Below are positions 41,043 to 42,924 of a stretch of 64,000 bases of DNA, piece by piece. Location: the NCBI RefSeq assembly GCF_020149915.1, contig NZ_CP083760.1:2976001-3040000 (forward strand), in the 5' to 3' direction. The DNA comes from Candidatus Sulfidibacterium hydrothermale (lineage in GTDB: Bacteria; Bacteroidota; Bacteroidia; Bacteroidales; F082). Numbering within the stretch: the stretch's first letter is position 1; each line of letters opens with the position of its first letter. The position numbers and the translations under genes are program-made. A model generated the notes under the pieces. It had not been told where the DNA came from and did not search any database. It saw only the letters and a list, made by a program, of their open reading frames with translations.

Positions 41043-41699
41043 CTAAATACTCATTTCCGGTACTTCTCCTTCAACCAACAGCGGGGCTTCCGTTTTTTCA
41101 ACAATTTCTTCCACGCTGACACCGGGAGCTCTTTCTATCAGTTTAAAGCCTTGCGGCGTAACATCTACCACAGCAAGATCCGTTACAATTCGTTTTACAC
41201 AATTCACTCCGGTTAACGGCAAAGTACATTCATTCAATAATTTAGGGTTTCCTTTCCGATCGGTATGCGTCATAGCCACAATGATATTTTTAGCCGATGC
41301 CACCAAATCCATGGCGCCGCCCATGCCTTTTACCATTTTTCCGGGAATTTTCCAGCTGGCAATGTCGCCGTTTTTATTTACCTGAAAAGCACCAAGCACA
41401 GTCAGATCAATATGCCCTCCGCGAATCATGGCAAAACTGGTAGCCGAATCGAAAAAGGCAGCTCCTTTTACATAAGTTACCGTTTGCTTTCCGGCATTAA
41501 TCAGATCGGCATCCAGCTCATCCTTTGTTGGGAAAGGACCGATACCAAGCAACCCGTTTTCCGATTGTAAAACCACTTCCACTCCTTCCGGAATAAAATT
41601 GGCCACCAGTGTCGGAATTCCGATACCGAGATTAACATAGTAACCATCTTTCAGCTCTTGTGCTATGCGTTTGGCAATACCGTTTTTATCTAAACTCAT
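41043..41699 (-). CDS. 3-oxoacid CoA-transferase subunit B
   Basis: A 218-residue beta subunit of a class I CoA-transferase that moves CoA from succinyl-CoA or an acyl-CoA to acetoacetate. The catalytic Glu is E47 in [29 protein letters not shown] and the C-terminal AP(G)VS and [12 protein letters not shown] regions match. Subunit A lies upstream at 42232-42924. The two genes, normally adjacent, are separated by 532 nt holding an inserted nuclease cassette. In this operon it would activate acetoacetate released by leucine breakdown. Confidence 0.93.
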
Positions 41700-41744: not shown

Positions 41745-41753
41745 TATATTTTA
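41745..41753. repeat. Left 9-bp direct repeat of the nuclease cassette
   Basis: TATATTTTA directly abuts the left cassette end (TTTCACG at 41754). The same 9-mer occurs at 42226-42234 just beyond the right end, as expected of a target-site duplication. Confidence 0.6.
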
Positions 41754-42225
41754 TTTCACGCAAAGCCCGCCAAAGACTACGCTAAAAGCGCAAAAAGATT
41801 ACAGGTTATTTACGATTCTGTGAATATTATCTTTCAACGTTTTTGCATTAAAATTGATAAGCAAACCTAATTTCACACCAGACAATCTAAGATAGGTTAA
41901 TAACTGGGCATAATGGACAGGCGCCAGGGTTTCAACAGATTTTACTTCAATGATAACCTTTTTATTAACCAAAATATCAATCCTATATCCTACATCTAAC
42001 TTAACCTCTTTATAAACAAACGGCATGGCCACTTGCTGTTGCACATCATAACCCTTTATCCTAAGATCATATGCCAATGCATTTTCATAAGCGGATTCCA
42101 ATAATCCCGGGCCAATACTCTTGTGCACTTCTATTGCAGTTCCAATACATTGATATGAAATATCATTCTCATGCATTTTTGCGTTCTCTGCGATTTTACA
42201 CTTTTGCGTTCTCTGCGTGAAACAT
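41754..42225. mobile_element. One-gene GxxExxY nuclease cassette inside the CoA-transferase operon
   Basis: A 472-bp segment. The left end TTTCACGCAAAG and the inverted right end TTTCACGCAGAG differ at one of 12 positions. Each end continues with a cluster of four CGCnAAAG-like repeats (left: 41759, 41768, 41780, 41789; right inverted: about 42177-42218). The only gene fills the space between the clusters. A 9-bp direct repeat flanks it, three bases from the right end. It separates ctf subunits A and B, which would otherwise be about 50 nt apart. Similar CGCAAAG repeats are common in Bacteroidota intergenic DNA; a named family is not known to me. Confidence 0.6.
41799..42176 (-). CDS. GxxExxY protein (PD-(D/E)xK nuclease-like)
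   Basis: A 125-residue protein. The name-giving motif is G24-L-L-E27-S-A-Y30. A PD-(D/E)xK-type core follows: D67 in RIDILVNKKVIIEVKS with E77-x-K79. The end contains the conserved LLINFNAKTLKDNIHRIVN. The family is widespread and its biological role is not established. The gene lies exactly between two inverted repeat clusters, its start and stop within a few bases of them, which suggests it is the cargo or the mobilising enzyme of the cassette. That is inference. Confidence 0.9.
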   Translation of the reverse strand: MHENDISYQCIGTAIEVHKSIGPGLLESAYENALAYDLRIKGYDVQQQVAMPFVYKEVKLDVGYRIDILVNKKVIIEVKSVETLAPVHYAQLLTYLRLSGVKLGLLINFNAKTLKDNIHRIVNNL

Positions 42226-42234
42226 TATATTTTA
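42226..42234. repeat. Right 9-bp direct repeat of the nuclease cassette
   Basis: TATATTTTA, identical to 41745-41753. Its last three bases are the stop codon of ctf subunit A on the minus strand, so insertion occurred right at the end of that gene. Confidence 0.6.
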
Positions 42235-42924
42235 ATCTCGTGTCGTTGCAAACTCAATGCGTTTTTCATAATTTTCTCCCTGGAAGATGCGCTGGACAAA
42301 TATTCCGGGAGTATGAATGCAATTCGGGTCCAGTTCGCCGGCCGGCACCAGTTCTTCCACTTCGGCAATGGTAATTTTTCCGGCCATGGCCATCATGTTG
42401 TTAAAGTTGTTGGCCGTATGCCGGTAAACAAGATTTCCGGCCGTATCGCCTTTCCAGGCTTTTACCAAAGCAAAGTCGGCAGTCAGCGCCGTTTCGAGCA
42501 GGTACATCTTACCGTTAAACTCCCGCACTTCTTTTCCTTCGGCCACTTCGGTACCGTAGCCTGCCGGAACATAAAACGCCGGAATTCCGGCACCGCCTGC
42601 CCGGCAGCGTTCAGCCAGCGTTCCCTGCGGATTGAGTTCCACTTCCAGTTCGCCCGAGAGTAACTGACGCTCAAATTCGGCATTCTCGCCCACATACGAA
42701 GAAATCATTTTTTTTATCTGATGGCGTTCGAGCAAAACACCCAGGCCGAAATCATCCACACCGGCATTATTGGAAATACAGGTTAGTCCGGTAACGCCCT
42801 TATCGTGCAACGCCCGGATCAGGTTTTCGGGAATTCCGCACAGACCGAAACCACCAAGCATCAGGGTCATGTTATCCTGAATATCGCGAACCGCTTCGGT
42901 AGCATTTTTTACCACTTTATTCAT
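42232..42924 (-). CDS. 3-oxoacid CoA-transferase subunit A
   Basis: A 230-residue alpha subunit partner of the 41043-41699 product. The N-terminal glycine loop [18 protein letters not shown] binds CoA, and [15 protein letters not shown] and the [21 protein letters not shown]-like region are typical. It starts 28 nt after the acyl-CoA dehydrogenase gene on the same strand. Downstream the operon is interrupted by the nuclease cassette, which may reduce or uncouple expression of subunit B. Confidence 0.92.

Follow-up and report, generated by a model that had tools for sequence, protein, structure and literature searches.

A GxxExxY nuclease gene between inverted repeat clusters: a possible gene-bearing form of a REPIN-like system

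The spacer between two CoA-transferase subunit genes of Candidatus Sulfidibacterium hydrothermale holds a one-gene cassette, in which a GxxExxY gene has a cluster of short repeats on either side, the two clusters being inverted to each other. In our estimate, the chances are about even that this cassette represents the gene-carrying version of a resident REPIN/RAYT-like repeat system, built on a PD-(D/E)XK nuclease and not on a Y1 transposase. This reading draws on what was directly observed, namely the anatomy of the cassette, gene-less hairpin-capable elements in spacers, turnover by presence and absence, co-variation of arms and protein, a predicted nuclease fold and purifying selection. 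From these we infer that the nuclease acts on the repeats.

In the window, i.e., the whole stretch of 64,000 nucleotides analyzed here, the cassette measures 469 bp (41754 to 42222), or 472 bp including the CAT at 42223 to 42225. Its left end, TTTCACGCAAAG, starts at 41754, and the inverted partner TTTCACGCAGAG (minus strand) ends at 42222. TTTCACGCAnAG opens both ends, and each arm carries four CGCnAAA-type units. The features of the locus are as follows.

41043..41699, minus strand: downstream host gene, CoA-transferase subunit (PF01144, 3.9e-50)
41745..41753, unstranded: left TATATTTTA, candidate target duplication, directly outside the left end
41754..41798, plus strand: left arm (downstream of the gene), TTTCA and then four CGCnAAA-type units, an inverted repeat of the right arm by sequence
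41799..42176, minus strand: GxxExxY gene, 125 aa, predicted PD-(D/E)XK nuclease fold (TIGR04256, PF13366, AlphaFold2, Foldseek)
42177..42222, minus strand: right arm (upstream of the gene), TTTCA and then four CGCAGAG/CGCAAAA units, by sequence with one direct and inverted pairs
42226..42234, unstranded: right TATATTTTA, separated by 3 nt from the right end and including the stop codon of the upstream CoA-transferase gene
42232..42924, minus strand: upstream host gene, CoA-transferase subunit (PF01144, 2.1e-80)

Counted by hand, the left-arm units lie at 41759, 41768, 41780, and 41789 (spacing 9-12-9), and the right-arm units, from outside inward on the minus strand, at 42217, 42208, 42192, and 42183 (spacing 9-16-9). 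Neither CoA-transferase gene is broken by the inserted cassette. The initial annotation had described this layout (the ends, the repeat clusters, the gene, the positions of the 9-mer, and the stop codon within its right copy), and the sequence matches that description; its claim that the cassette has one gene and inverted clusters of repeats is borne out by the sequence and by comparison. The window arms taken alone are moderately unusual, their inverted score of 25 being reached by 18 of 2000 shuffles. A shared word of at least 9 occurred in 0.0004 of the shuffled flanks; the real flanks, cut slightly off, gave 6 (at least 6 in 0.0201), so that neither value is a clean estimate for the 9-mer itself. 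The comparative evidence is stronger than these chance statistics.

The window protein is a GxxExxY protein according to TIGR04256 (4e-43; 146.5 bits against a cut-off of 35), and its sole Pfam match is PF13366 (PDDEXK_3; 2.9e-41, 141 bits against a cut-off of 22). The five AlphaFold2 models had mean pLDDT values of 66.0 to 92.7, the best being 92.7. Weak to moderate Foldseek matches were obtained with this model: the best was SSO0001 (1.5e-4), and all 4 matches with E ≤0.001 were SSO0001, which we take to be a Cas4 protein. Beyond E 0.001 came a DinG chain, lambda-type exonucleases (from 6.2e-3), and a Holliday resolvase. A search of the sequence against solved structures gave nothing significant (best E 0.19), and PADLOC gave a weak Cas4 match (4.8e-4). 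All 12 sequences compared from the genus share E27, D67, E77, K79, Q91, and Y95, and this residue set, E..D..ExK..QxxxY, is presumably the motif of Cas4/lambda exonuclease-type nucleases. As far as residues and model go, D67/E77/K79 and the fold matches place the protein in the PD-(D/E)XK nuclease superfamily, with putative catalysis. Nearest solved folds, residue set, and PADLOC match all liken it to Cas4/lambda exonuclease-type nucleases, but GxxExxY is only 125 aa long. Sequence comparison further indicates that the protein is under purifying selection: pN was 0.07 and pS 0.77 between the genes of the window and of G003, and among 11 Flavobacterium cassettes, 33 of 55 pairs had a usable dS and gave a median dN/dS of 0.065.

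The same CoA-transferase spacer was read in 15 genomes, including that of the window, in which both neighbors are present; three further loci, with a distant match (45 to 48% identity) and without an adjoining second subunit, were left aside. The full cassette occupies the spacer in the window's genome (G000) and in G003. Empty sites in relatives, which the initial annotation had proposed to look for, were found within the genus in G001, G006, G007, G008, and G009, where the spacer measures 28 to 39 nt. In G011 the cassette is internally deleted, both gene ends and both arms being kept, and G002 carries the arms without the gene, the left arm being degenerate. The G004 spacer holds another cassette (L034:906-1497), with a four-helix gene (TIGR02436, 1.4e-20; PF05635, 3.6e-13) between different inverted repeats. 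G015, from another genus, has CGCAAAG-type repeats and no gene, and in G012, G013, and G022 the spacer of 24 to 91 nt has no such repeats. The spacer is thus empty, filled, deleted, or gene-less according to the relative, so that both empty sites and derivatives without the gene are represented. Such derivatives, likewise anticipated, turned up at this spacer, at a Flavobacterium spacer, and dispersed in the genus. The G010 spacer (L039) carries an unrelated hairpin insert with CCCACCCCTACACCCCTCCAAGGAGGGG at its middle.

Repeats around GxxExxY genes were scored more generally by comparing the upstream 250 nt with the reverse-complemented downstream 250 nt. The loci came from an 80-locus sample (named genomes of many phyla), 60 genomes of the order (29 of which have a GxxExxY gene), the genus, and 7 viral contigs; the 80-locus sample, consisting of the best-matching 80 among the matches listed, is therefore biased toward relatives of the window's alignment. 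After 7 of 173 ORFs with short or N-filled flanks were left out, and with near-duplicate loci kept in the count, 100 of 166 scored GxxExxY ORFs had inverted flank repeats that surpassed the 99th percentile among 1756 in-locus controls. Inverted or direct repeats exceeded the threshold for 124 of the 166, and neither did for 42. Among neighboring ORFs of at least 100 aa, 9 of 185 passed the same threshold. Thus, the earlier proposal that such clusters flank other GxxExxY genes holds for most of them but not for all. Two of 103 rows were left out before one further count. A genus search gave 17 GxxExxY matches (one a 43-aa fragment), each with a short-repeat cluster on at least one side by eye; at L061 a cluster is visible upstream only. 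The arm motifs vary from locus to locus, and the motif classes are hand-made patterns that leave 50 of 190 loci in no class, many of these having other repeats by eye. Two side observations concern the same loci. At L001:1181-1930, L053, L054, and L055, gene-less repeat modules of the ACCACAAAG..CTTTGTGGT type stand in series beside the GxxExxY gene, and the next gene in L001, L054, and L055, read from the sequence, is presumably an XRE/LexA-like regulator. The GxxExxY genes of two viral contigs (L149, L152) also lie within inverted clusters, of other motifs.

The arms and the protein vary together. In 187 of 190 distinct loci, repeated 6-mers of the flanks were compared with protein identity. 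Between genera, flank similarity rises with protein identity (rho 0.287 over 16,237 pairs, reached in 0 of 500 permutations), and clearly similar flanks occur in 0 to 1% of pairs below 45% identity, 5% at 45 to 55%, and 11% at 55 to 65%. Within genomes, 97 pairs gave a rho of 0.428, reached in 0 of 500 permutations (their mean being 0.13). The co-variation agrees with the suggestion of the initial annotation that the nuclease may recognize the repeat clusters. Joint inheritance of the gene and its flanks contributes to this co-variation; at such protein identities we would expect unconstrained flanking DNA to lose its likeness.

A similar anatomy surrounds four-helix genes. TIGR02436 was matched in 42 of the 60 genomes of the order, with 11 matches in the window's own genome. 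TIGR02436/PF05635 genes often lie within inverted, locus-specific repeat clusters (L153-L182, L232-L236): with 4 of 38 ORFs left out for short or N-filled flanks, 22 of the 34 scored exceeded the 99th percentile of 140 controls. From a small search of the open-access literature, we know of no report of TIGR02436 genes enclosed by inverted repeat clusters.

Gene-less and gene-bearing forms share one Flavobacterium spacer, whose cyclase-side neighbor matches PF04199 and whose other neighbor we take to be a radical-SAM/hemW-like gene. Both neighbors were present at 107 loci, 15 of 122 lacking one or coming from another site; the genus name rests on named loci (e.g., L081), and some loci are probably the same genome twice. 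For the 99 loci mapped to a sample of 111 genomes, hand-made patterns gave 38 gene-less hairpins, 14 cassettes, 24 empty spacers (including L271, with adjoining N letters, and L303, with half an arm), 15 other states, and 8 unread. A GxxExxY gene, at whatever location, is present in 37 genomes with the hairpin and absent from 1; the corresponding numbers for the empty spacer are 13 and 11 (Fisher p 4.5e-5, phylogeny ignored). The spacing of the units is similar in the two forms. From start to start, 9 (61 times) and 12 (31 times) are commonest in gene-bearing arms, and in gene-less hairpins 8 (29 times) and 9 (25 times) are followed by 11 and 12, five times each. At L319, L323, L330, and L315, the TTAACC of the repeat-element end forms the stop of the upstream gene, and the last codons differ from those of most empty sites.

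The load of repeats was then compared with gene content. AACCRCAAAGNNCRCWAAG was counted with up to 2 mismatches in the 111 Flavobacterium genomes, an excess being more than 10 over a backward control. Of 88 GxxExxY-containing genomes, 46 showed such an excess; of the 23 others, 1 did, G442 having repeats in excess and no GxxExxY gene. The largest count was 380 against a control of 14 (G469). Given genome size and the number of Y1 genes, the partial rank correlation between repeats and GxxExxY was 0.53. A tree was available for 93 of the 111 genomes. Across 8 independent phylogenetic pairs, a mean of 1.8 pointed in the expected direction vs 0.2 in the opposite (median p 0.5), and with a lower threshold 3.8 vs 1.4 (median p 0.625). 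Therefore, with so few supported independent pairs (8), the association between gene and repeats is not significant under phylogenetic control.

In the genus, matches to TTTCACGCAAAGNNCGCAAAR with up to 3 mismatches were counted against a control. They numbered 66 in G004 (control 4), 24 in G011 (1), 24 in G003 (5), and 12 in G005 (2). In the window's genome this motif was not seen in dispersed copies, the 7 matches (control 3) including the cassette's own two arms. Gene-less hairpins of the window type lie in G004, G011, G003, G001, and G005 (L403-L442), and by script 32 of 40 fetched stretches contain a complete inverted pair, 26 of them of 104 to 107 bp. Folding as hairpins gave a median z of -2.96 for 26 Flavobacterium elements of the CAAAG type and -4.56 for 26 from the genus; gene-less elements of the GAT type fold more weakly (median z -1.49, 16 elements). 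These low fold energies also fit single-stranded DNA hairpins.

What kind of element this is was judged against several explanations. The initial annotation had seen a minimal mobile element with a 9-bp target duplication. An exact pair of TATATTTTA, inverted ends, and empty sites in relatives are indeed what an ordinary small transposon making 9-bp duplications would leave. As a general rule, however, the duplication did not hold up. For the 80 of 173 GxxExxY ORFs with an inverted score of at least 34 and enough flank, the mean common word was 2.54 vs 2.36 after permutation (15 of 200 permutations as high). Since these 80 bounded elements show no clear excess, the TATATTTTA duplication is a local fact and no family trait. 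At the other occupied CoA-transferase spacers (G002, G003, G011), the left and right flanks are, by eye, only loosely alike, imperfect, and A/T-rich. Thus, of the classical marks of an IS or transposon, the constant duplication is missing and the empty sites are present, both here and at the Flavobacterium spacer. The arm sequence, moreover, changes from locus to locus. Of 72,556 plasmid records, 8 matched the window protein, and none of 50,697 phage records did; 7 loci with GxxExxY were matched among IMG/VR viral contigs. With so few plasmid matches, none in the phage collection, 7 on viral contigs, and many gene-less hairpins, the picture is closer to a resident REPIN-like system than to a transposon. 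A minimal mobile element is plausible as such, while the transposon in the ordinary sense is highly improbable.

The hairpins might instead be spread by another enzyme, either a RAYT/IS200-type Y1 transposase or the enzyme of an outer repeat, with GxxExxY genes landing in them or riding along. By eye, many gene-less copies of the genus are surrounded by an outer imperfect inverted repeat, GAGGCTGTTCAAAAAG, which is absent from the window cassette and whose core occurs, allowing 1 mismatch, in 16 of those 40 fetched stretches. It could be the end of another element, and on its account something else may spread these copies. The three GxxExxY genes of G004 have other arm sequences, one of them (L059) with similar CGCAAAG units; the outer repeat and the want of a closely matching gene argue there against a simple model of one gene for one repeat. 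G442 likewise has repeats and no clearly matching gene, and many Flavobacterium genomes (77 of 111) carry Y1 genes. However, with GxxExxY and genome size given, Y1 has no further explanatory value (partial correlation -0.02), and the 22 genomes with an excess above 50 all have GxxExxY, whereas 3 of them have no Y1. The outer core, with up to 2 mismatches, lies in only 2 of 190 GxxExxY flanks, and the co-variation of motif and protein across genera is not readily explained by a passenger gene. We consider this explanation unlikely. A co-inherited regulatory or RNA element, whose arms would act in the transcript as a stem, attenuator, or processing site while the protein binds or trims RNA without any DNA mobility, appears to us quite unlikely. 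The placement between co-directional genes and the folding energy would suit it, as would the G004 cassette in the same spacer, with its TIGR02436/PF05635 gene and its own inverted repeats. Nevertheless, the arms of gene-less hairpins are no better matched within than between copies (1618 and 1712 of 2000 permutations as high), and the consensus fold of 26 gene-less copies, a mixed set, is weak, with 3 compensatory cells vs 10 broken. The dispersed gene-less copies and the turnover by presence and absence also speak against it. Among 19 distinct Flavobacterium cassettes, the arms are weakly coupled within copies (4 of 2000 permutations), and phylogeny may lie behind this coupling.

For the REPIN-like system that we favor, we infer that the GxxExxY nuclease binds the units of its own arms, probably where single strands are exposed and the arms fold into a hairpin or cruciform. 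It would nick or trim the arms, and the element would be copied into spacers or lost from them with no fixed target duplication. Gene-less copies could arise by internal deletion, as in the one case of G011, and would be moved in trans.

As far as the available parts of the RAYT/REPIN papers (PMC3116915, PMC8049555) go, the two systems are alike in having a small gene adjoining its own repeats and many gene-less, inverted, hairpin-capable doublets. Such dispersed intergenic doublets are present in the relatives, and the window motif is not so dispersed in its own genome. A possible further likeness, within the same parts of these papers, is the larger number of repeats in genomes with the gene, here 46/88 vs 1/23 and not significant under phylogenetic control. 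Rarity on plasmids is shared as well: in the accessible text of PMC8049555, RAYTs were not observed on plasmids, and GxxExxY matched 8/72,556 records. The phrase "target site duplication" is absent from the REPIN text as available (PMC3116915). In contrast, the enzyme there is of the HUH/Y1 type, whereas here it is a PD-(D/E)XK nuclease, and GxxExxY arms are rows of short units. Membership among the RAYTs is excluded, as the GxxExxY enzyme is not a Y1 transposase. TIRtrons and their TIRYTs, described in the accessible portion of PMC3733652 as tyrosine transposases with an HUH motif, resemble the cassette in their single gene within terminal inverted repeats that differ between genes, some in dispersed families, but GxxExxY is no such transposase. 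Intervening sequences of 23S rRNA (IVP/S23, PF05635) are likewise cassettes with one small ORF, the Coxiella 23S rRNA IVS of 428 nt being, in the part available, a small selfish cassette of this kind (PMC4990558), and a PF05635 cassette sits in the same spacer of G004. Unlike the window cassette, which lies in a protein-coding operon, they are sited in rRNA and encode an unrelated four-helix protein.

In the open-access PMC literature, as far as its text was available, GxxExxY is mentioned in passing, and no description was found of a link between GxxExxY genes and repeats; prior art elsewhere is possible. Nothing was found there on PDDEXK_3/TIGR04256, on six repeat strings, or on REPIN together with nuclease in Flavobacterium.

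More tentatively, and with chances that we put short of even, GxxExxY may drive a second REPIN-like world that evolved independently, in which a minimal Cas4-like nuclease in many phyla would copy and remove hairpins made of its own phased units. This could account for many unexplained clusters of spacer repeats (CGCAAAG, CACAGAG, CACGGAT, CACGAAT, and ACAGGAT types), and four-helix proteins of the IVP family might operate a third such system in parallel, with cassettes of the same anatomy. For a curated family without an assigned function, the work offers a concrete role that can be tested, and it supplies a candidate enzyme for a common but nameless kind of intergenic repeat in bacteria. If true, gene-plus-hairpin repeat systems would have arisen more than once, with a nuclease replacing the transposase, and the multiplication of short hairpins in bacterial genomes would be open to direct test.
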